Shown: in pieces, positions 5,390-64,000 of the stretch
Position numbering within the stretch: position 1 is the first letter of the stretch
Layout of the letters: the number at the start of each line of letters is the position of its first letter
Made by a program: the position numbers and the translations under genes
Assembly (NCBI RefSeq): GCF_025370785.1
Contig: NZ_JAMXFA010000005.1
Coordinates: forward strand, 62,001 to 126,000
DNA: 64,000 nt
Reading direction: 5' to 3'
Source of the DNA: Laspinema olomoucense D3b
Lineage (GTDB): Bacteria; Cyanobacteriota; Cyanobacteriia; Cyanobacteriales; Laspinemataceae
Notes under the pieces: generated by a model
Told to the model about the DNA's origin: nothing
Databases searched by the model: none
The model's input: only the letters and a program-made list of their open reading frames with translations

Positions 5390-6790
5390 ATGAGTATTAA
5401 ACCTGTGGAATCTACTATTGCAGCTAAATCTAGTAACTTTTTGGGTCAAAATCCGCATTTGAATGAGTTAAGCGAGTCGGAAGCATTGCCCGGATTTGAT
5501 GCCAAACATCCACCGGATCCGAAACTGATTGATACTTGTGTTCATTGTGGCTTTTGTTTGTCTACTTGTCCCAGTTATCGGGTGATTGGGAAGGAAATGG
5601 ATTCGCCGCGAGGGCGGATTTATTTAATGGATGCGATCGCCAATGGGGAAGCACCTCTGGCAGAGGGAACGGTGGAACATTTCGATACTTGTTTGGGATG
5701 TTTAGCTTGTGTCAGCACTTGTCCCTCGGGGGTACAATATGATAAATTGCTGGCGGCAACTCGTCCTCAAGTTGAGCGCAATTATGAACGGTCCCTAGGC
5801 GATCGCGTGATTCGCAGTCTCATTTTTAACCTATTCCCCTATCCCAATCGTCTGCGTCCTTTATTGGTTCCCCTTTATGTTTACCAAAAGTTAGGAATTC
5901 CCAAATTAGTGCGCCAGACGGGTTTATTAAAGAAACTCTCCCCGCGATTGGCAGCAATGGAGTCAATTTTACCCAATATTACCGGGGAATTTTTCAAGGG
6001 TAACTATCCCGATGTGATTGCGGCACAAGGAGAGAAACGGTATCGGGTGGGGATGTTACTCGGATGTGTACAGCGGTTATTTTTTAATCCCGTAAATGAG
6101 GCAACGGTAAGGGTTTTAACCGCCAATGGCTGTGAGGTAGTGATTCCGAAAGGACAGGGATGTTGTGCGGCTTTACCGGCACACCAAGGACAAGAAGAAC
6201 AGGCTATTGCGATCGCCCGTCAGATGATTGATAGTTTTGAAGGCACTGAGGTTGATTTTATCATTATTAATGCCGCCGGATGTGGTCATACTCTCAAAGA
6301 ATATGGTCACATTCTCCAGGATGACCCCAATTATCGCGACAAAGCTCAAGCCTTTGCCAATCAGGTAAAAGATGTCCAAGAATTCCTAGCAATGGTGGGA
6401 TTAACCGCTCCACTTTCTCCTTTAACGGAAGGGAAATTAACCGTAGTGTATCAGGATGCTTGTCATCTCTTGCATGGTCAAAAAATTAGTCAGCAACCGC
6501 GCCAAATTCTCAAACAAATTCCTGGAGTTGAACTGAAAGAAGCGCTTGATGCGGCGTTATGTTGTGGCAGTGCGGGGGTTTATAATATGCTCCAGCCGGA
6601 GGTATCGGAAGAGTTGGGGCAGCAAAAAGTGCAGAATTTGCTCAATACCGGGGCCGAATTAATTGCCTCTCCTAATCCCGGTTGTGCGTTGCAAATTCAA
6701 AAGCATTTGCAGTTACAGGGAAAAGATATACCGCTGATGCACCCGATGGAATTATTAGATTTATCAATTCGGGGGGTGCGGCTGAAATAG
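5390..6790 (+). CDS. glcF: Glycolate oxidase iron-sulfur subunit GlcF
   Basis: A 466-residue protein from this start. Two CxxCxxCxxxCP clusters bind 4Fe-4S centres: Cys 50, 53, 56 and 60, and Cys 101, 104, 107 and 111. The C-terminal two-thirds holds two CCG domains, seen as QGCCAALPAHQG and AALCCGSAGVYN. The subunit passes electrons from the FAD subunits of glycolate dehydrogenase into the membrane chain. I chose the ATG preceded by GGAGAA; an earlier in-frame ATG at 5288 sits inside the repeat hairpin and adds 34 residues without similarity to the family. It is downstream of glcE in the same direction. Confidence 0.9.
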   Translation: MSIKPVESTIAAKSSNFLGQNPHLNELSESEALPGFDAKHPPDPKLIDTCVHCGFCLSTCPSYRVIGKEMDSPRGRIYLMDAIANGEAPLAEGTVEHFDTCLGCLACVSTCPSGVQYDKLLAATRPQVERNYERSLGDRVIRSLIFNLFPYPNRLRPLLVPLYVYQKLGIPKLVRQTGLLKKLSPRLAAMESILPNITGEFFKGNYPDVIAAQGEKRYRVGMLLGCVQRLFFNPVNEATVRVLTANGCEVVIPKGQGCCAALPAHQGQEEQAIAIARQMIDSFEGTEVDFIIINAAGCGHTLKEYGHILQDDPNYRDKAQAFANQVKDVQEFLAMVGLTAPLSPLTEGKLTVVYQDACHLLHGQKISQQPRQILKQIPGVELKEALDAALCCGSAGVYNMLQPEVSEELGQQKVQNLLNTGAELIASPNPGCALQIQKHLQLQGKDIPLMHPMELLDLSIRGVRLK

Positions 6791-54927: not shown

Positions 54928-55037
54928 ATACCTCTTGAATACCCCTCAACTCTCAACGCGATCGGGTAAGATCTAACCAGTACCGACAGCTAAAATAGCC
55001 AAGCGGTTACTGAGTCAAGCGTGAAAAACAGCCAAAA

Positions 55038-56738
55038 ATGTCAACCCCCCATCGGCGTCAGGAAAATCAGCGAAGAGAGAGAAAAAAATCTGGTTTCAAA
55101 ATTCTCAAAACAATCATGAAGTGGAGCGTCGCCTTCCTGCCGTTAAAATTTTTTATCCCCAAGTTTAAGCGGGCTTTGGACCCGCGTTCCATGCAACCGG
55201 CAGGGTTACCCGATAATGAAGAAGAACGCTTACAAGCTCTCTACCGCTATAGCATTTTAGATAGTGATGCTGAAGACTCATTCGATGACTTAACCGCCTT
55301 AGCTGCTTCAATTTGCGGGACTCCCATTGCCTTAGTCAGTTTGATTGATGCCAATCGTCAATGGTTTAAATCCAAAGTAGGTTTAGATGCTTCCGAAACC
55401 CCCAGAAATCTGGCCTTTTGCGCTCATGCGATTCTCAATCCCAATGATATTCTCGTAGTTCCAAATGCGTTAGAAGATGAGAGGTTTGTCGGAAATCCCC
55501 TGGTTACTTCTAATCCGAATATCCGCTTTTATGCGGGAACGCCGGTTGTTACCCCCGATGGATTTCCTTTGGGAACCCTGTGTGTCATTGATACCATTCC
55601 GCGCCATCTCACCTCAGAACAATTGGAAGGACTACGATTGTTAGGACGACAGGCGATCGCCCAAATGGAATTACGACTCCAAGTTAAACGCTTAGAACGT
55701 CAAATTGACCGAGAAAAAGACGCCAAAGCCAAACTTCGGGCCACCGATGCCCAAATTGTCGATTTGCTGGAAAATATGACCGATGCTTTTTTCGCAGTTG
55801 ATCGCCAATGGCGGTTTAGTTATGCTAATCAAAAAGTTGGAGAAATTTTGCAGCGAGAACCTGAAAAGTTGCTGGGGAAAATTATCTGGGAAGAATTGCC
55901 CGAAACTGTGGGTTCTAAGTTTGAACGAGAGTATCGAAAATCCGCAGCGCAACAAGTCAGCGTCACCTTTGAAGACTGTTCTCCCATCACCAGGCGCTGC
56001 TTTGAAGTTCGGGTTTTTCCATCTTATGAGGGACTCTCTGTATTTTTTCATGACATTACCCAACGAAAAGAAACTGAAGATGCACTTTGCCGGGAACAAG
56101 AAAAAGTCCAAGAATTACTCTTAAATATTTTACCACCCACCATTGCCAAACAGCTTCAGGAACAACCCGGGCTAATTGCGGAAAAATTTGACGCGGTTAC
56201 TATTTTATTTGCAGATTTAGTTAAATTTACGGAACTCTCAACCCAGGTTTCTCCCCAAGAATTGGTGACTCTTCTCAACACCATTGTTTCCACTTTCGAT
56301 CGCCTCACGGAAAAACATGGATTAGAGAAAATTAAAACCATTGGGGATGCCTACCTGGTAGTCGGTGGCGTTCCCCTCTCTCGACCCGATCATGCCGAAG
56401 CGATCGCAGAAATGGCCTTGGATATGCAAGAGGCGATCGGGCAGTTCAACGCCGAATATCTCACAAATTTAAGCCTGCGAATTGGGATTAACACCGGACC
56501 CGTAGTAGCTGGTGTCATAGGCATTAAAAAATTCACCTACGACCTTTGGGGAGATGCCGTCAACACCGCTTCCCGCATGGAATCCCACGGAATAACGGGA
56601 AAAATTCAAATCTCTGAAACCACCTATCAGTTGTTGCAAGATAAGTATAAGTTTGAGGAACGCGGTGTCATTGATATTAAAGGGAAAGGAGAAATGAAAA
56701 CCTATTTTCTCACAGGTAGAAATGGGTCTACTCTTTAA
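55038..56738 (+). CDS. Class III adenylate cyclase with GAF and PAS sensor domains
   Basis: A 566-residue protein. A basic start and hydrophobic stretch ([15 protein letters not shown]) may associate with the membrane. A GAF domain (about 65-215, [19 protein letters not shown]) is followed by a PAS domain (about 240-345) and the cyclase domain (about 375-565). Metal-binding Asp residues are in [11 protein letters not shown] and [12 protein letters not shown]; Lys before TIGDAY and Asp in [16 protein letters not shown] select ATP, so cAMP is the likely product. All catalytic residues are present. Small-molecule or redox sensing by GAF is expected; the actual signal is unknown. Confidence 0.88.
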
Positions 56739-56974
56739 ACGGTTCTCCATCAGGTTCGCGATCGCCTCTAACACCCCCAACTACAGCTTGCCTATTGTAC
56801 CACACAAAGCGATCACCCTTTTTCTTAGAAATGTGATCGCCTATTTGGCTACAGGCGCTCGCCTCTTTTTTCCCACAGTTTCCTCCCCTTTGTCGGCAGG
56901 AGGGCGATTGTAGATTATAATAGGCACAGATTGACTTTTGGCTAACCCTGATAAAAATCAACTTGCCCCCAAAA

Positions 56975-57217
56975 ATGCTGACTCAATACATCCAAAGTGC
57001 TATGCACCGGGCCACTTATGAGTTGCTTGAAGATGATACGTTTTACGGCGAAATTCCGGGGTTTCCTGGGGTCTATGCTAATGCCGAAACCCTGGAATCC
57101 TGTAGAGACTTATTGCAGGAGGTCTTGGAAGGTTGGATTATCTTAGGATTGCGATTACAGCATAACCTCCCATCTATTGAGGGCATTGATCTAACTCCAC
57201 CACAAGAGGTCGCTTAA
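56975..57217 (+). CDS. HicB-family antitoxin-like protein, solitary
   Basis: An 80-residue protein with the HicB fold pattern: YELLEDDTFYGEIPGFPGVYANAETLE, then LQEVLEGWIILGLRL. HicB is normally the antitoxin of the HicA mRNA interferase. I find no hicA frame on either side, so the toxin is missing or was never adjacent. The ATG is used; a TTG four codons upstream is possible but unneeded. C-terminal DNA-binding domain is absent, as in the short HicB type. Confidence 0.75.
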   Translation: MLTQYIQSAMHRATYELLEDDTFYGEIPGFPGVYANAETLESCRDLLQEVLEGWIILGLRLQHNLPSIEGIDLTPPQEVA

Positions 57218-57362
57218 GGCCGCCATTTGGACCTATTCAACTTTTAAACATAACATTGGACAATTCACTGACGTTTTGTGGAAACAATCGGGTTGTGATA
57301 CTCCAGGCGATCGCCCCAAATCTCAGAAATGCGATCGCCTCTTAACCACAGATCCGTATTTC

Positions 57363-57656
57363 TCATGGAGCAACATTAACAACTTCACTGTATTGCTCAA
57401 GTTCTTCCTCTGTAACATGGATGCCATTTTGCCACAGTTCATATTCACTGATATCAATCTCGTCATTCCACACCAGTCCATAACCCCCCAAATCTACTCT
57501 GAAATTTTTGAAAAATCCTGGATTGCTTAATGGTACAAACATTGGTTTTTCCAATAAAGGAGTGATGTCATATTTTCGCCATTCTTGATTAGTAAATTGA
57601 ACCAGTAAGAGGCGATCACCAATAGCTTTAGCAGAAAAAATCCGAAAAATGTTCAT
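57363..57656 (-). CDS. DUF2442 domain protein
   Basis: A 97-residue protein with the DUF2442 pattern: DRLLLVQFTNQEWRKYDITPLLEKPMF is the conserved front, then WNDEIDISEYELWQNG. The family binds DNA-like ligands in a beta-rich fold but its role is unsettled. It directly follows the DUF4160 gene at 12 bp on the same strand. This pairing occurs repeatedly in bacteria, which suggests a two-gene module such as a toxin-antitoxin pair; that is inference. Confidence 0.8.
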   Translation of the reverse strand: MNIFRIFSAKAIGDRLLLVQFTNQEWRKYDITPLLEKPMFVPLSNPGFFKNFRVDLGGYGLVWNDEIDISEYELWQNGIHVTEEELEQYSEVVNVAP

Positions 57657-57668
57657 AACAATTCATCC

Positions 57669-57917
57669 TTATTTTAATGGAGGAAGTTTCCTAAATTGTT
57701 GGCTATCCCACATAGCCAAAAGTTCTTCTTTATACAAAATTGCCCATTCTAATACCATCTTTTCAGCCCGATTCGGTAAATCTCCTTCAATAACTTGTAA
57801 AGATTCAATACCGACCAAAGCATTGTACTCGCTGTAAACTGCGTGAAAATGAGGAGGTGGGTGATCTCCAAAGAAAATTTTGATGATGATTTCGTAAAAT
57901 CGGGTAACTTCTGGCAT
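57669..57917 (-). CDS. DUF4160 domain protein
   Basis: An 82-residue DUF4160 member with the signature KIFFGDHPPPHFHAVYSEYNA near the N-terminus (HPPPHFH is diagnostic), followed by a helix VLEWAILYKEELLAMWD. Function unknown. It is the first gene of a two-gene unit with a DUF2442 protein. Intact and of normal length. Confidence 0.82.
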   Translation of the reverse strand: MPEVTRFYEIIIKIFFGDHPPPHFHAVYSEYNALVGIESLQVIEGDLPNRAEKMVLEWAILYKEELLAMWDSQQFRKLPPLK

Positions 57918-58170
57918 AAAGGTTTTCTCAAGGACGAGATAAAGATTGTTGTACCCAAATCAAAGGGTATCATGACATTCGAGCAGAACCCATTTTTGAC
58001 CGATCGCCTTTCTCAGGGGTTCTGGAAACAGCGACTTTTCTCTCAGCAAGACAATCCTTCTCGACACCCGCAACTAGCGATCGCCCCAAATCCTACGGCC
58101 AATCCCTCACAATGGCAAAAACTGGCAAAAACTGCCATAATCGAGTCAGAAAGTTTATGAACTGACAGTG

Positions 58171-58440
58171 ATGAAAAGTATTAACATTTCTTTACCTGAC
58201 TCGATGCGAGCGTATGTGGAAGAGATTGTGGCAACGGAGGGATATAGCACCCTGAGCGAGTATTTCCGGGAGTTGGTACGGCAAGACCAAAAGCGCAAAG
58301 CCACCGAACGGCTGGAAACTCTGTTGTTGGAAGGTCTCGAATCCGGAACTGCAACGGCGATCGCACCGCAAGATTGGCAAGATATTCGCGCAGCAGTACG
58401 GGAGAGATTAGCCAAACGGTCTAACCCAACTCAGGAGTGA
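58171..58440 (+). CDS. ParD-like antitoxin
   Basis: An 89-residue ribbon-helix-helix protein: KSINISLPDSMRAYVEEIVATEG and YSTLSEYFRELVRQDQKR match the ParD/CopG antitoxin pattern. The C-terminal half (about 45-89) is charged and would bind the toxin. A GTG one codon earlier is possible; the ATG is preferred. It overlaps its partner by the sequence TGATG. Confidence 0.87.
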   Translation: MKSINISLPDSMRAYVEEIVATEGYSTLSEYFRELVRQDQKRKATERLETLLLEGLESGTATAIAPQDWQDIRAAVRERLAKRSNPTQE

Positions 58441-58766
58441 TGAGCAACGTTAGTAAACGCCCGCAAGTCATCCGGGATTTAATAGATTTGGCTACCTACA
58501 TCGCCGAAGATAGCTTGGATGCGTCCGATCGCTTTCTAGCGGCGGCAGAAAGTACCTTTCAGCAACTGGGAAAAATGCCCGGGATGGGAAAAATCTGCCA
58601 ATTTTCTAATTCTCGTTTGGCAGATGTTCGGCAGCAAGCAATTAAAGGCTTTAAGAACTATTTGGTTTTTTACCGAGTTACCGATACTGGCGTGGAAATT
58701 ATCCGGGTGATTCATGGTGCAAGGGATATTGAGGCTATTTTAGATGATGAAGAGCAGGAGGACTGA
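58440..58766 (+). CDS. ParE/RelE-family toxin
   Basis: A 108-residue RelE/ParE-superfamily toxin: RDLIDLATYIAEDSLDASDRFLAAAEST is the helical front and KGFKNYLVFYRVTDTGVEIIRVIHGARDI the diagnostic strand block, listed here as YLVFYRV and RVIHGARDIEAIL. ParE toxins block DNA gyrase, whereas RelE cleaves mRNA; this subgroup is usually called ParE. A GTG one codon upstream is an alternative start. Translationally coupled to the ParD gene. Confidence 0.87.
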   Translation: MSNVSKRPQVIRDLIDLATYIAEDSLDASDRFLAAAESTFQQLGKMPGMGKICQFSNSRLADVRQQAIKGFKNYLVFYRVTDTGVEIIRVIHGARDIEAILDDEEQED

Positions 58767-58918
58767 AGCTTTTGACAATATCCAAGGCTAAATTGGTTTC
58801 GGGGTTTTGAGAAATGCGATCGCCTTTTTCTAGACAGAGCGATCGCCTATTGTTCTACAGGCGATCGCCTCATTCACTTCTAATTCAAAGTTACTTCAAA
58901 TCCCCGCTCCTCTCTCAC

Positions 58919-59539
58919 TTATAATCCTAACTCCTGATAGCGAGCTTGAATCTGGGCGATGGTAAAGACGGCGCGAAACTTTAATCCCTCTTTTTGATAC
59001 AATTCTGCTCCGCCTTGTTCGCGATCGACTAGGGAAATCACTTCCTCTACTTTGTACCCGGCGTCGCGCAAACGGTGAACCGCTTTCATGGCCGAGGCCC
59101 CAGTAGTGACCACATCTTCTAGGACCACAACCTGGGTCCCCGGACTCAGTTCGGGTCCCTCGATATAGGCTTGGGTGCCATGTCCCTTGGCTTCTTTGCG
59201 AACAATTAGGGCCGGAATCGGTCTGTTTTCGTAGGCCGAGACGACGCTAACAGCGGTTACAATCGGGTCAGCGCCCAAGGTTAACCCTGCCACGCCTAGG
59301 GTTTCTGGGGAGAGCATGGAGAATAGCACCTGACCCGTGAGGAGTGCACCGATGGGGTGTAGAGTGACTTGTTTGCCATTGATATAGTAGCGGCTGCTCT
59401 GGCCGGAGGATAGGGTAAAGTCCCCCTCGCGATAGGCTAACTGGCAGAGTAAGTCCAGAAGCTGTTGGCGTTGGTCGTTTAAATCGGTAGGGTGAACTGA
59501 GACCGATGTCTCATCCAATCCTTGAGTAATCTCGGTCAT
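58919..59539 (-). CDS. pyrE: Orotate phosphoribosyltransferase
   Basis: A 206-residue enzyme of pyrimidine synthesis that makes OMP from orotate and PRPP. The PRPP-binding motif is VVVLEDVVTTGASAMKAV, and SGQSSRYYINGKQV and GLTLGADPIVTAVS are also characteristic. KEAKGHGTQAYIEG contains the flexible-loop residues. The length is standard. It starts divergently from a small exported-protein gene. The preceding 150 bp carry three HIP1 sites but no gene. Confidence 0.94.
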   Translation of the reverse strand: MTEITQGLDETSVSVHPTDLNDQRQQLLDLLCQLAYREGDFTLSSGQSSRYYINGKQVTLHPIGALLTGQVLFSMLSPETLGVAGLTLGADPIVTAVSVVSAYENRPIPALIVRKEAKGHGTQAYIEGPELSPGTQVVVLEDVVTTGASAMKAVHRLRDAGYKVEEVISLVDREQGGAELYQKEGLKFRAVFTIAQIQARYQELGL

Positions 59540-59633
59540 GGTTAATTGTAGTGACAGGAGGAAAATTTCAGCCGATAATTATCTTATCGTGGAAGTTGAG
59601 CTAATATCGAGCCAAAAGGTGAGGAGAAAATTT

Positions 59634-60038
59634 ATGAGACTCCAGTTAAAAACCGCGATCGGGGTGTTGGCACTCCTAGGCGCGTCTGTGGTGGGGACGC
59701 CCGAGGCAGTCGCCCAAAGTCAACCGGGAAGCATTGCTGAACAATTTGAGCGGGCTTTCTTTCGTAGTTCTGATACGTTTTACCAGAATCGCTCAATTTT
59801 TGACCAAATCGGCACTTATCTGCTGCCGATGACTTACCCGGAACGGGATGCGGAACGGGATGCGGAACGGGTACACAAGCTCTATGAGTCGGTCCTGCAA
59901 GTCCAAACCTCTAGCGATCCGATTATTAGAACCCGGGATTTGACGAACCCGTTTAACGAGTCTTTGCAGACGATGCCCAGTTATACCCCAAGTGGGATCC
60001 CTTTTAATCCTCAAAATGAAATCCTGCCCCTGCGGTAA
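59634..60038 (+). CDS. Exported hypothetical protein with short charged repeat
   Basis: A 134-residue protein with a clear signal peptide (RLQLKTAIGVLALLGASVVG, likely cut after AVA) and GAGGAG 7 bp upstream of the ATG. The mature part is mostly polar and contains a tandem ERDAERDAERV stretch, encoded by three 12-bp repeats (CGGGATGCGGAA). I recognise no family. The last 20 residues include PFNPQNEILPLR. It stands alone between pyrE and the tRNA/intron region. Confidence 0.65.
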   Translation: MRLQLKTAIGVLALLGASVVGTPEAVAQSQPGSIAEQFERAFFRSSDTFYQNRSIFDQIGTYLLPMTYPERDAERDAERVHKLYESVLQVQTSSDPIIRTRDLTNPFNESLQTMPSYTPSGIPFNPQNEILPLR

Positions 60039-60048
60039 GTAAAAATTT

Positions 60049-60070
60049 GGGGCAGTTGATGTACTGCCCC
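60049..60070 (-). terminator. Hairpin downstream of the split tRNA
   Basis: GGGGCAGT-TGATGT-ACTGCCCC: an 8-bp stem and 6-nt loop. On the minus strand the stem is followed by AAATTTTTAC, so it could end the leftward tRNA/intron transcript about 105 bp beyond the tRNA. On the plus strand it lies 10 bp after the exported-protein gene and could end that transcript too. Confidence 0.6.
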
Positions 60071-60222
60071 GAGAAAGGGGGGAACTCGTGAAATTGACGT
60101 GAGTTGGGAATTTCTTCTGGGCGATCGCCCAGAAGAGGTGGGGTTCGTTTCTGATTCCCGTTATCTTGTTTAATCGGCAGTGCAGGAGTTGAACCTGCCT
60201 AAGGCGAATTAGTTGCCTGAAC

Positions 60223-62016
60223 TTAGGAGTTACCTTCTAAGCTCGGCTGCCAAACCGGACTTACACCTTTCAATGTATCCGGCTTTAAGCTAGGTGGGGA
60301 GTTCCTTTGGGACTGGCCCCGCATCATGTTATGGATTTCATCGTGGCAGTGCAGGTGCACCAATGTTTTATTGGTCTTTTTATTATTTTCCCTGTTGCCG
60401 TCGATGTGATGGACCTCTATTGGGTCTTCTACATAAAACGGAAGCCCACAGTGTGAACATTTCCATTCTTGGCTTTTTAATCCCCTTTTTATGTCTTTTG
60501 GACATAAAGGGTGGCTCCCTCTGCGTTTTGCCCAGAACACCCAATCTCCGTCGTAGGGGCTTCTTGTCCCTTGTACTTTGATGTGCTGCTCATAGTCAAA
60601 CTCGTATAGAGTTACCGCCAAGTGTAGATGATTACCTTCCTTCCATCCGAAATTCCAGGCTGAAGTTTTAGATTTATGAAAAATCTTGCTTGCAATGTAA
60701 CCGTTTCCTCTTTGAGCGAACTTTTTCTGTCCCCAATTTAAGTAGACTGGGTACAAATCATGTTGCAGCTTTCTGAAGATTTCGCCTGAACTGTCGCCTG
60801 TTTTAAAGTAGTTTGCCCATCCTCTTACGAACCAGTTGTGCCTTTTTAGCATTTCTGCTGGGGGCATACTCTGTCCCGTTTTTAGTATGGTTTTTACCTG
60901 TTTGCGGAATTTTTCTATGGATTCTTCTGACGGTTGAACCCTTGTTCGCTGCATCAGGTTCTTTCCATGTGAGTTAGTTCCGCATTTATGTTTTCCTACC
61001 TCATAACTTCGGATGTTGAACCCTAGAAAATCGAATCCTGGTTTCTGACCTTCAACTTCTTTTATGGTGTGCGCTATTCGGGTTTTATTCTCATTGAGTT
61101 TTAACCCTATTGTTGCTAACCATTTTTCTGTTTCGGATTTGGCTTCCTGGATTACTTCTAGTTTTTCATGAAGGATTACGAAGTCGTCTGCGTACCTTAT
61201 TGTTCTAGCTTCACTCCATTCTTTCATTTTCCCTTTTTCTTGCCCTTTGCGGGTGCGGAATGTCGGGAATTTGTCTGCTATGTGTGTCTCAAGCCCGTGG
61301 AGAGCTATGTTGGCTAGTAAGGGTGAAATGACGCCTCCTTGTGGGGTCCCTGATTCGGTTTTGTAAAATACGTCTCCTTTCATGATTCCAGATTTGAGCC
61401 ATGCTCTTACCTGGTTTTCCATGATCGGAAAGGTATTTAACTTACCTATTAGCGCCTCATGGTCGATGTTATCAAAACAACCTTTAAGCTCAGCATCCAG
61501 TATGTATTTACTTTGACGTCTGACTTGCAGTTCGATTGCGATTATGGCATCGTGGCAGCTTCTTCCGGGCCTAAATCCGTATGAGTTAGGCTCGAATTTG
61601 GCTTCCCATTCAGGTTCTAGGGCTAATTTGGCTAGAGCCTGCTTCGCCCTGTCCTCTATGGTGGGAATACCTAAAGGTCGCGTCTCCTTCTGGCCCGGTT
61701 TGGGGATTTCTACCCTTAAAAGGGGAGTAGCCTTACCATCCAGGCTTAAGGTTTCTGCCAGTTTTAGGCGTTCTGATGGGTCAAGATTCTTGATTCCATC
61801 TACGCCTGCTGTGGCTTTTCCCTTGTTTTCCTGTGTTACTCTTCTGACTGCTAAGAGTCGGGCCGAGTAAGAGGTTATTAGGGTTTTCTGCAACCTTACC
61901 TTGAAGGCGGTGTTTCCATCTTTTGATGCTTCATAGATTCGAGTTTGTAGTTTCGCCACTTTCGTTTGGACTGTCGCCCAATCTATTTGTGACCATTCCG
62001 TTTTCACCTTGGACAT
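60223..62016 (-). CDS. Group II intron-encoded reverse transcriptase/maturase with HNH domain
   Basis: A 597-residue protein. The RT domain (about 60-330) includes SYGFRPGRSCHDAI, GTPQGGVISPLLANI and the YADD box at 275-278. At motif A, where a group II RT carries the metal-binding Asp (DIKGCF), this protein has ELKGCF with Glu 176, an unusual change at a catalytic residue. The X/thumb maturase domain (about 340-450) follows, then an HNH endonuclease (CSHCG, VHHIDGN, LHCHDEIHN) that looks intact. The reading frame does not stop in domain IV; it runs through domain V and ends in domain VI, so the last 30 or so residues are translated ribozyme. Function: needed for splicing of the host intron; mobility doubtful given Glu 176. 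Confidence 0.9.
   Translation of the reverse strand: MSKVKTEWSQIDWATVQTKVAKLQTRIYEASKDGNTAFKVRLQKTLITSYSARLLAVRRVTQENKGKATAGVDGIKNLDPSERLKLAETLSLDGKATPLLRVEIPKPGQKETRPLGIPTIEDRAKQALAKLALEPEWEAKFEPNSYGFRPGRSCHDAIIAIELQVRRQSKYILDAELKGCFDNIDHEALIGKLNTFPIMENQVRAWLKSGIMKGDVFYKTESGTPQGGVISPLLANIALHGLETHIADKFPTFRTRKGQEKGKMKEWSEARTIRYADDFVILHEKLEVIQEAKSETEKWLATIGLKLNENKTRIAHTIKEVEGQKPGFDFLGFNIRSYEVGKHKCGTNSHGKNLMQRTRVQPSEESIEKFRKQVKTILKTGQSMPPAEMLKRHNWFVRGWANYFKTGDSSGEIFRKLQHDLYPVYLNWGQKKFAQRGNGYIASKIFHKSKTSAWNFGWKEGNHLHLAVTLYEFDYEQHIKVQGTRSPYDGDWVFWAKRRGSHPLCPKDIKRGLKSQEWKCSHCGLPFYVEDPIEVHHIDGNRENNKKTNKTLVHLHCHDEIHNMMRGQSQRNSPPSLKPDTLKGVSPVWQPSLEGNS
60252..60285 (-). ncRNA. Group II intron domain V
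   Basis: A 34-nt element on the minus strand with AAGCCGGAT pairing to GTCCGGTTT (including the canonical G-U), a two-nucleotide bulge, and ACATT-GAAA-GGTGT closing a GAAA tetraloop. The catalytic AGC triad is present. Domain VI follows with an 8-bp stem (GAGCTTAG/CTAAGTTC) and a bulged A at 60218. Confidence 0.93.
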
Positions 62017-62561
62017 AACTACTCATCTGGTCTACTTTTCCTAGCTACCTACCTTTCTGCATATCCCAGGCGTTACTCTGGGCTTTGGCTTTTTGTAGGT
62101 TCCTTCACCTGTCCTTCCGTTCCTTAGCTGGAACCCCTTGATTAGGGTCGGAGGAATTAGCAGGTTTCCCGCTTATCTCTCTTCACATCTTGACAACTTA
62201 GGGGCCTCCTTTAGCCGGGAGAGTGTTTTAGGGCCATCTCTGAGCTACTCACGGCTCAGTTTCCTTACTCTCTTGTTCTTTTGAACCCAGGGGGTGCATA
62301 CCCTTACCCTGGTGCATCTGACCAGCTTTTATGCGGAGGTTCACTTTCGTTCCCCATATTGCCTCCCTCTCCCGTTCTTTCCCGGGGGTCTCCGGTACTA
62401 GGTGGGATTTATACCCTGGCTTGTTAATCCCTGAGTTTGCTAGTCTCAGGAACCGGGTATTGGAGTCTCCCGATGGACTGGGAGGAAGGATTTTCACCTT
62501 CATGTGTAGCAAGCGTCGCGTCGCACTGAGTTCGCTGCCTCATCCGCTCGGCCAACTGCCG

Positions 62562-62917
62562 TCTTTTTTTACTGATTGTAGCAGACTCATGGCAGAGTCG
62601 TGGGAAAATTTTGCGTTCAGAATGAATCCGAAAAGTCGGAATTCTGGAGCAAGCAACAGACTCTGACTGACGATTCTAACCCCTAGGGGTGTAACCTGTC
62701 TAGGGGGGAAGGGTAACGGGAGAAAAAATCAGTGGGAGGCAAGCGGGGAACGGATTGGCTCAGAACGTGATGGAATAAAAAAAATAGGGATTAAAATCGA
62801 GATGCCTGGGCTTGTCAAGGGCTGGTGTCATTTTCCCCCCGGGAAAGGCGAGGTACTCTTGAAGCTAGAACAATGAGTCGGTATTGCGGCGATCGCATAA
62901 GAGAAAGAAAAAGCATT
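62562..62917. other. Interval upstream of the split tRNA and of the next gene
   Basis: No gene is supported. A T-run on the plus strand lies next to the tRNA 5' end (an A-run in the leftward promoter region), and TACAAT on the minus strand may be the -10 of the tRNA promoter. The right part includes the start region of the following gene, whose ATG lacks a strong ribosome-binding site. Confidence 0.4.
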
Positions 62918-63601
62918 ATGAAAGTCAACCCCACTGTCATCCTCACGTTTTTGCTGTTATCCATGATGTTTGGCGCGGGTGCCTTGAGTGCCTCCCTGGG
63001 ATTAGAGTTAGGCAAAGCTGCGCTCAAGGAAGTAACTCAGCCTGATGTTCGTCCGAATACCTCGGGAGAGTCCAAAACCCCGGCGACAGGTAAGGGCCAA
63101 GGGCTGAAGCTGTTGAAGGAAGACGAAGTAATCAAAACCGTCAAGGCGAGAATCTCGGGCAAACAAGTGGAACCGGAATCCGCTGAAACGAAAGCGGCAA
63201 AACCGGAAGCCAAGGAGTCTGAAGAAGCCAAAGCTGCCGAAGAACCGAAGAAAGACGAGCGGTTTCCCATCGCCACCAAGGACCAGGATGTCAGTTTGGA
63301 AGTCACCGGGGTGCGGCGAGAAGGGTCCTCGCTGGTGCTGGATGTTAGTTTAAAGAATGAGAGTTCGCGATCGGTACAGTTTCTTTACAGTTTCTTGAAT
63401 GTGACTGATGATAAGGGCCGATCGCTCAGTGCCACAACGGAAGGATTGCCGGGAGATTTGTCCCCCAGCGAGGAGAGCTATTCGGGGACCGTCAGCATTC
63501 CCACAGCGTTGTTAGACAATGCACAGAAGCTGTCGTTAACCCTGACGGATTATCCGGATCAGGAGCTTGAGCTCAAAATGTCCGACATTCCGGTGCAATA
63601 A
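62918..63601 (+). CDS. Membrane-anchored hypothetical protein
   Basis: A 227-residue protein. The N-terminus is a hydrophobic anchor or uncleaved signal (VILTFLLLSMMFGAGALSAS). About residues 50-125 are a low-complexity Lys/Glu/Ala-rich linker (EAKESEEAKAAEEPKKDE). A compact beta-rich C-terminal domain follows, about residues 130-225, with DVSLEVTGVRREGSSLVLDVSL and ESYSGTVSIPTALL, like immunoglobulin-type domains such as DUF4352. It is probably exposed outside the membrane. The ATG here puts the anchor at the very start; an upstream frame extends 31 residues without sense. Confidence 0.72.
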   Translation: MKVNPTVILTFLLLSMMFGAGALSASLGLELGKAALKEVTQPDVRPNTSGESKTPATGKGQGLKLLKEDEVIKTVKARISGKQVEPESAETKAAKPEAKESEEAKAAEEPKKDERFPIATKDQDVSLEVTGVRREGSSLVLDVSLKNESSRSVQFLYSFLNVTDDKGRSLSATTEGLPGDLSPSEESYSGTVSIPTALLDNAQKLSLTLTDYPDQELELKMSDIPVQ

Positions 63602-63772
63602 ACGGGAGACTCATGTGCGGATACAGAGCAACTAACCAACCCTAGCATCGGGTTTAAGTTAGGGGGATGTTCTGGCATCGGGACCCCGAGTAATTTCTCG
63701 GAGTTCAAGTTCCGGTGCCAAGCGCTCAACGTTAAAATGGGTAATCCAAATGTTTCAAGATGAGTTGCAGTG

Positions 63773-64000
63773 GTGCGTTCTTTAAGCTATTTTTCTGCGG
63801 TGGGTGGAATGGTGACCCTGGGAGTCGTGGGATGGCACTCAAGCCGTGCGATCGCCAATGATGTAGCGGTGGTGGTCCCGGGGAGTTCCCTTCACACCGG
63901 GCAAGATATCGTACTGCGCTTGCTTGCGGTATTTGGACTGATCGCCATTAATGCTTTTTTCGTGACTACGGAATTTGCGATCGTTTCCGTACGGCGATCG
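63773..64000 (+). CDS. CNNM/hemolysin-family (CorC/DUF21) membrane protein, 5' part
   Basis: The first 76 codons are present and the frame is open at the window edge. After a leader (YFSAVGGMVTLGVVGWHS) comes DIVLRLLAVFGLIAINAFFVTTEFAIVSVRRS, given here only as LIAINAFFVTTEFAIVSVRR, the first transmembrane helix of DUF21/CNNM proteins. This family transports or senses divalent cations such as Mg. A GTG start is used; the codon just before is also GTG, and the next in-frame codon upstream of these is a stop three codons away. Confidence 0.75.
   Translation, partial: MRSLSYFSAVGGMVTLGVVGWHSSRAIANDVAVVVPGSSLHTGQDIVLRLLAVFGLIAINAFFVTTEFAIVSVRRS

Follow-up and report, generated by a model that had tools for sequence, protein, structure and literature searches.

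The window analysed here, a 64,000-nt stretch of the Laspinema olomoucense D3b genome (contig NZ_JAMXFA010000005.1, positions 62,001 to 126,000), carries on its minus strand a tRNA gene with anticodon CAU that is split within the anticodon by a group II intron, and this intron encodes a protein with a maturase domain (Table 1). The two exons (35 + 38 nt) join into a 73-nt tRNA, and the insertion lies between anticodon bases 35 and 36. ARAGORN reads the joined exons as tRNA-Met(cat) of 73 nt, a label to be taken with the reservation that the program lacks a class for Ile2 and gives Met for E. coli ileX as well. Run on the window in intron mode it returns c[60174,62561] (cat)i(36,2315), with the intron after nucleotide 35, and thus agrees with the original prediction both on the exact 73-nt CAU tRNA formed by the flanks and on the point of interruption. 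In its default mode ARAGORN finds only tRNA-Leu(UAG) in the window and overlooks the split gene, which is a warning for annotation, as a tRNA missed in this way will seem to be absent.

The joined exons are conserved and covary as a tRNA cloverleaf. Among seven distinct joined tRNAs, all 140 cells of the 20 base pairs are paired (140/140), and double changes are seen at 9 of these 20 pairs. The covariation score is 0.421, against 0.143 for shuffled and at most 0.093 for slid controls; the shuffles overstate the significance because the sequences are related, and the slid controls retain the relatedness but favour a structure that was derived from the same sequences. As the same exon/intron/exon anatomy is found in 16 genomes with compensatory changes, and exact empty sites exist in two sister species (see below), the observation lies far beyond chance.

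Table 1. Features of the split tRNA gene, the neighbouring gene and the intron copy found outside the tRNA site. Positions are those of the window unless a genome and contig are given.
Feature	Position	Strand	Description
tRNA exon 1	62561-62527 (35 nt)	minus	nt 1-35: acceptor 5′ strand, D arm, anticodon 5′ stem, C34, A35; from ARAGORN and empty-site identity
Intron-binding site 1 (IBS1)	62527-62531	minus	ACTCA, final five bases of exon 1
Group II intron	62526-60212 (2,315 nt)	minus	5′ GTGCG ... GGCAAC 3′
Exon-binding site 1 (EBS1) hairpin	62240-62259	minus	loop TGAGT at 62247-62251, complementary to IBS1 ACTCA (62527-62531)
Intron-encoded protein (597 aa)	60223-62016	minus	RVT_N, RVT_1, maturase domain X (GIIM); YADD at residues 275-278
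Domain V helix	60252-60285	minus	Rfam RF00029, covarying pairs, fold
Domain VI helix	60215-60247	minus	bulged A at 60218, 7 nt before the 3′ end of the intron, candidate for the branch point; covariation, fold
tRNA exon 2	60211-60174 (38 nt)	minus	nt 36-73: U36, anticodon 3′ stem, variable loop, T arm, acceptor 3′ strand, discriminator A73
Phosphoribosyltransferase gene (adjacent)	58919-59539		PF14681 above cut-off; pyrE by eye
Off-site intron copy (L320/L228)	G104:C1:1023072-1025386		antisense to a pentapeptide-repeat frame (PF00805), at its 5′ end

The group II features that had been named for this intron, namely a GTGCG 5′ end, a domain V, a domain VI with a bulged A and a 3′ AC, hold up well: both ends are seen directly, and the two domains find support in Rfam and in covariation. 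RF00029 matches positions 60212-60287 of the minus strand at 40.1 bits (gathering threshold 40, E 3e-5), and domains V and VI fold at -31.6 kcal/mol (z -5.1 against shuffles). When these domains and exon 2 are aligned from 11 of the 16 loci (9 distinct sequences), 98.6% of the cells are paired and 15 of the 32 pairs show double changes, with a covariation score of 0.517 against 0.213 for shuffled and at most 0.102 for slid controls, to which the reservations made above on both kinds of control apply as well. Domain VI has double changes at 8 of its 14 pairs, and its bulged A is invariant in the alignment. Ten full-length intron homologues, the window copy included, were also aligned end to end. 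In the EBS1 stem both sides change at all 6 pairs, with 89.4% of cells paired in 11 distinct sequences, and the TGAG of the loop is invariant. The intron starts with GTGCG in 14 of the 16 loci and with GTACG in the other two. A group I intron was considered for the tRNA locus and rejected, as RF00029 alone was found in positions 55000-64000 (E ≤ 0.1), with no match to RF00028.

Distribution, empty sites and intact copies

We scanned 388 genomes of the order under strict filters with a model (R1) of domain V, domain VI and exon 2. Seventeen matches in 16 genomes reach at least 92 bits, after which the scores fall to 67 bits. The 3′ flank of one locus per genome reads as a tRNA exon in all 16, and ARAGORN in intron mode finds the split tRNA in 16/16, always between the second and third anticodon bases; 7 of these 16 readings were made on named records that agree fully with the scanned locus in the flank at exon 2. 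The search of other cyanobacteria that had been proposed for the insertion site thus finds it occupied in at least 16 of the 388 genomes, in five families (f1, 7 genomes; f2, 4; f7, 1; f8, 2; f33, 2), which is a lower bound, nine of the many R1 matches listed below 92 bits having been inspected. A second model (R2), built from 11 of the 16 loci, was run, likewise under strict filters, on a class-wide sample of 388 genomes, some of them members of the order already scanned. It gives 42 matches at E ≤ 1e-12, of which 4 are known split tRNAs and the other 38 all score 84 bits or less; no new split tRNA was found among the 25 of these 38 whose 3′ flank was inspected (24 and L220).

Presence and absence of the intron can be compared among close relatives. 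In the 14 genomes of the family, the tRNA is uninterrupted in 7 (with a more divergent sequence in G001 and G013) and present as two halves only in the other 7. Of the eight species of the genus, two (G003 and G007) have the site empty: their uninterrupted tRNA agrees with the joined exons at all 73 nt (100%), and the main matches of the orthologous flanks show 85.7-93.1% identity.

It had been pointed out that an intact second copy would mark the split gene as a pseudogene. A pattern for the uninterrupted anticodon arm, allowing up to 2 mismatches, is absent from all 16 genomes with the split gene and present in 356 of the 372 other genomes of the order, and in the window's own genome neither the pattern nor BLAST finds an intact copy of the split tRNA. 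Among the 16 non-split genomes without the pattern, 12 are below 90% complete, whereas G104, G128, G149 and G180 are not; BLAST with the tRNA of family f8 gives a 74%-identical match in G128 and no match in G104, G149 or G180. From the split genomes belonging to f2, f7 and f8, the same BLAST search recovers no more than the halves, apart from another exon-1-like piece that lies at the end of a contig in G345 and a weak match of 21 nt in G014; G148 and G285, whose tRNA is more divergent, give no match.

The second of the two R1 matches in G006 (contig C158) is a partial downstream duplicate. It belongs to a 273-nt direct repeat (95%) at L230:136-408 and 5496-5768, with copies 5,360 nt apart, which spans the intron 3′ end and tRNA exon 2. 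The repeat encloses frames for a methyltransferase/short-chain dehydrogenase fusion, a class II aldolase-like protein, a Rieske ring-hydroxylating protein and a SAM hydroxide adenosyltransferase, and the arrangement resembles a segment that has a duplicated 3′ end of the tRNA at its borders.

The intron-encoded protein and the history of the intron

The 597-aa protein matches PF00078, PF13655 and PF08388, as well as TIGR04416 at 317 bits (cut-off 300). A C-terminal HNH motif was read by eye, the HNH model NF008448 scoring 20.9, far short of its cut-off of 87. Among solved structures the nearest in sequence is PDB 6me0, a maturase reverse transcriptase from Thermosynechococcus elongatus that aligns over residues 3-568; the host gene of its intron is not known to be a tRNA. 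The maturase frame continues through domain V into domain VI, to 11 nt from the intron end (60223-60287, minus strand). This part is open in the window copy and in L045, L046 and L075, is closed by a stop in L074 and lies outside the aligned stretch in most others. A functional role for it was considered, and given the stop in L074 and the mostly unaligned remainder we treat the overlap as fortuitous.

The YADD motif of the reverse transcriptase (RT) is lost in 6 of the 16 tRNA-intron proteins, being replaced by YGDN in L077, YADN in L223, YANE in L224, YAND in L225 and YAHD in L226 and L227. The window copy and nine others retain it, one of which (L229) has 5 in-frame stops. All six frames without YADD are free of stops for 553-565 codons, and in the two YADD-less pairs compared the ratio of non-synonymous to synonymous divergence (dN/dS) is low, at 0.228 for L224-L225 (dS 0.40) and 0.243 for L226-L227 (dS 0.12). 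By domain, L224-L225 gives dN 0.114 and dS 0.385 for the RT part and 0.088 and 0.624 for domain X, while domain X is identical in L226-L227, which are hence uninformative on domain selection. Residues of the HNH motif are altered as well in L225, L226 and L227. Judged from the tree, YADD was lost on at least three and probably four branches, a count on which the support for the placement of the off-site copy (87/74) bears. Loss of the motif with the frame kept open is what one would expect of a protein retained for splicing. MatK of plastids is without a working RT site.

We built a tree from 36 chosen proteins, in which all 16 proteins of the tRNA introns group with the one off-site copy, found in G104, as a single clade (support 100/100). 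The off-site copy has an intact YADD, and its left flank, GGTTAAGGCA...ACTCA, resembles exon 1.

The history of the intron can be set beside that of the adjacent phosphoribosyltransferase gene. Laspinema palackyanum D2a has a protein with 98% identity to the intron protein of the window, and for the phosphoribosyltransferase the identity in this strain is 97.6%. At synonymous sites the intron protein differs from the window copy by dS of 0.027 in L045, 0.067 in L046 and 0.138 in L074, as against 0.245, 0.314 and 0.274 for the phosphoribosyltransferase. The corresponding differences at fourfold sites are 5/230, 10/227 and 25/215 for the intron protein and 24/109, 28/108 and 23/107 for the phosphoribosyltransferase, and in L076 the relation is reversed (75/139 vs 30/107). 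This suggests that the genus holds two intron subtypes whose history departs from that of the locus, as repeated homing would give. No near DNA match of the element was found in phage records, and no protein relative of at least 60% identity was found among the 47 matching phage records or the best 5,000 plasmid records; viral contigs hold three distant protein relatives, at 28-29%.

Interpretation, alternatives and known parallels

We consider it very probable that the window holds a functional, single-copy CAU tRNA gene, probably for tRNA-Ile2, that is split at 35/36 by a group II lineage dedicated to this site, and for this lineage we propose splicing, homing and retention of the maturase. 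The split gene would be transcribed as one precursor, in which the intron ribozyme would be aided by the maturase translated from its own RNA. EBS1 (TGAGT) would pair with IBS1 (ACTCA), which stands in the anticodon loop on its exon side, the branch point would be the bulged A of domain VI, and the exons would be joined into the tRNA, which as tRNA-Ile2 would decode AUA after lysidine modification. Copies with intact RT and HNH motifs, such as that in the window, could home into the uninterrupted gene for this tRNA in related cyanobacteria, and because the tRNA would be needed, loss of the intron would require its exact removal. The RT motif has gone from the protein in several lineages, where the frame is kept open presumably for splicing alone, as in plastid MatK.

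The proposed amino acid identity comes from comparing the CAU tRNAs of the relatives, which fall into three types: fMet (60/75 to plastid trnfM), a second type and the split type. Against plastid sequences the split type scores 49/74 with trnI-CAU, 36/73 with trnM-CAU and 49/74 with trnfM, and against E. coli it scores 48/76 with Ile2 and 44/77 with Met. By pairing off the two elongator types we lean towards Ile2 rather than elongator Met for the split type. A fragment of the plastid trnI-CAU sequence compared here occurs in a chloroplast primer given in passages of PMC6583991, where it is not labelled as that tRNA, and a literature search with other fragments of it found nothing. Two anticodon-to-T-arm fragments of the second type, not called by ARAGORN, lie at G000:C72:12956-12985 and G000:C98:205961-205990 (L318, L319) and are possibly remnants of integration sites.

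Several points weigh against the proposed reading. Splicing is something that we infer from the sequence, and the same is true of the amino acid identity, essentiality and homing. The RF00029 score is barely above its threshold, the start of the intron is GTACG rather than GTGYG in two of the 16 copies, and inspection by eye of the aligned 5′ part of the intron gave no convincing partner for an EBS2/IBS2 pairing. The second CAU type, too, is slightly nearer to Ile2 than to Met of E. coli (59/76 and 56/77). The maturase is not intact in every copy: L074 has one stop near the C-terminal end, and the five stops in L229 stand in a genome (G376, estimated 7% contamination) that carries the split tRNA, so that splicing there would seem to need help in trans or none. 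G104, the carrier of the off-site copy (99% complete, 2 contigs), has no copy of the tRNA, intact or split, by pattern or BLAST. Constraint on the RNA could partly lower the divergence of the intron; this could account for the values of L045, L046 and L074, but it could not raise that of L076. Finally, given the other CAU tRNAs of this genome, the split gene may fall short of being strictly essential.

As to the evolution of the protein, we favour, with moderate confidence, the view that the lineage is a bacterial counterpart of trnK/matK of independent origin, in which one intron lineage, seated in the anticodon of a single-copy tRNA, ranges from apparently mobile, by way of patchy homing, to immobile introns whose proteins, deprived of the RT motif on several branches, are kept as splicing factors on which translation depends. 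A competing view, which we hold to be possible though distinctly less probable, is that of a purely selfish homing intron, where splicing is efficient and neutral, the protein serves mobility only and the YADD-less copies are decaying. Presence and absence among sister species and a divergence uncoupled from the neighbouring gene are what active homing would give, and the off-site copy with its intact YADD, the copy with 5 stops and the HNH changes in L225, L226 and L227 fit as well. Decaying genes, however, would not be expected to give six YADD-less frames free of stops over their 553-565 codons with dN/dS of 0.23 and 0.24 in two pairs, and the repetition of the loss on separate branches also speaks against this view.

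That the split gene is instead a dispensable relic, killed by the intron and replaced by other CAU tRNAs, is in our view very unlikely. Candidates for such a replacement do exist: on the same contig, outside the window, ARAGORN finds an array of 30 tRNAs (G000:C68:194994-200442; L001:12995-18443) of which two are CAU, the genome also has one isolated CAU tRNA of another type, and CAU tRNAs of the array type, which could serve as backup, occur in other species of the genus, split genomes included. They are, however, also present in the intact G003 and G007 and thus do not track the intron. The CAU pattern finds no such extra tRNA in G148 (one contig) or G285 (two contigs); in each it shows just two CAU tRNAs that are intact, namely fMet and one further type, and the same holds for G012. 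A relic would also hardly have exons identical to the uninterrupted tRNA of sister species, nor compensatory changes in the split exons across families. Judging from these comparisons, the cell must probably splice the intron out to make this single-copy tRNA. The original prediction had called splicing essential if this were the sole gene of its kind; the first part stands in that no intact copy of the same tRNA is found, whereas essentiality itself is unproven, as other CAU types are present.

We give equally little credence to a regulatory switch, in which splicing efficiency would set the supply of the tRNA and an AUA-rich maturase frame would close a feedback loop between tRNA and maturase. 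The tRNA precursor itself carries the frame from which the maturase is translated, and AUA makes up 16 of the 35 Ile codons of the window protein and 217/614 over the 16 tRNA-intron proteins, but the figure for 18 related group II proteins outside tRNA genes (the off-site L228 included) is 189/638, which gives little sign of selection, and the scheme depends on the tRNA being Ile2. An assembly or annotation artefact has next to no chance of being the explanation: the genome of the window is a 104-contig draft (7.02 Mb), but the same structure recurs in 16 genomes, including the one-contig G148, the two-contig G285 and the three-contig G002.

Introns in bacterial tRNA genes are described as group I in passages of PMC4033280, in line with what the original prediction had stated, and group II introns as frequent in chloroplast tRNA genes in passages of PMC8393795. 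A survey of prokaryotic group II introns finds the CL type abundant in Cyanobacteriota, and its passages on this name no tRNA host gene (PMC8919778); a group II intron in a mitochondrial trnI of red algae appears in part of PMC6279150. In the literature covered, which largely leaves out subscription journals, no earlier group II intron in a bacterial tRNA gene was found. What appears to be new here is the bacterial case, together with good signs of repeated domestication of the maturase, tRNA-resident group II introns being already known from plastids.

The parallel to trnK/matK that had been drawn for a bacterial tRNA intron with its own maturase is sustained as far as the intron and the maturase are concerned, but in anatomy the closest parallel comes from the plastids of florideophyte red algae, where PMC3607583 describes a group II intron with a maturase that follows the third anticodon base of trnMe, the gene for elongator tRNA-Met. 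Both systems have a CAU tRNA, an intron at the anticodon with a GTGYG 5′ end, a maturase inside the intron and conservation across distant species. They differ in that the red-algal intron stands one base further on than the one described here, and in that the former is a plastid case with elongator Met as its tRNA according to PMC3607583, whereas ours is bacterial with Ile2 favoured. With trnK(UUU)/matK of streptophyte plastids our lineage shares a group II intron in a tRNA gene and, in some members, a protein that is retained although its RT motif is gone; the tRNA is another one, and the window copy keeps its YADD and HNH motifs and looks mobile. Loss of the RT motif with frame and domain X retained, as in matK, is thus seen in six of the 16 relatives (L077, L223-L227) and not in the window copy. 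If our reading is true, the lineage provides a free-living bacterial model for the passage from retroelement protein to host splicing factor, which is otherwise studied in plastids and for the spliceosome. It also offers natural comparisons, namely between YADD-bearing and YADD-less maturases at one site, with empty sites in sister species and with an off-site copy.

The group I introns in tRNA genes of cyanobacteria are a further likeness, in that they are catalytic introns in a tRNA, and the genome of the window has one of them in the anticodon loop of fMet; they belong to an unrelated ribozyme class, and the fMet introns here, at 245-246 nt by ARAGORN, are too short to encode an RT. In the genome of the window this intron (about 246 nt) lies in the initiator tRNA-fMet gene at L306:1495-1814 (G000:C52), and the same site is occupied in L305, L307, L310, L311 and L312; RF00028 is above its gathering threshold in L306 and L305. 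Two CAU tRNAs of this genome thus carry catalytic introns of different classes.

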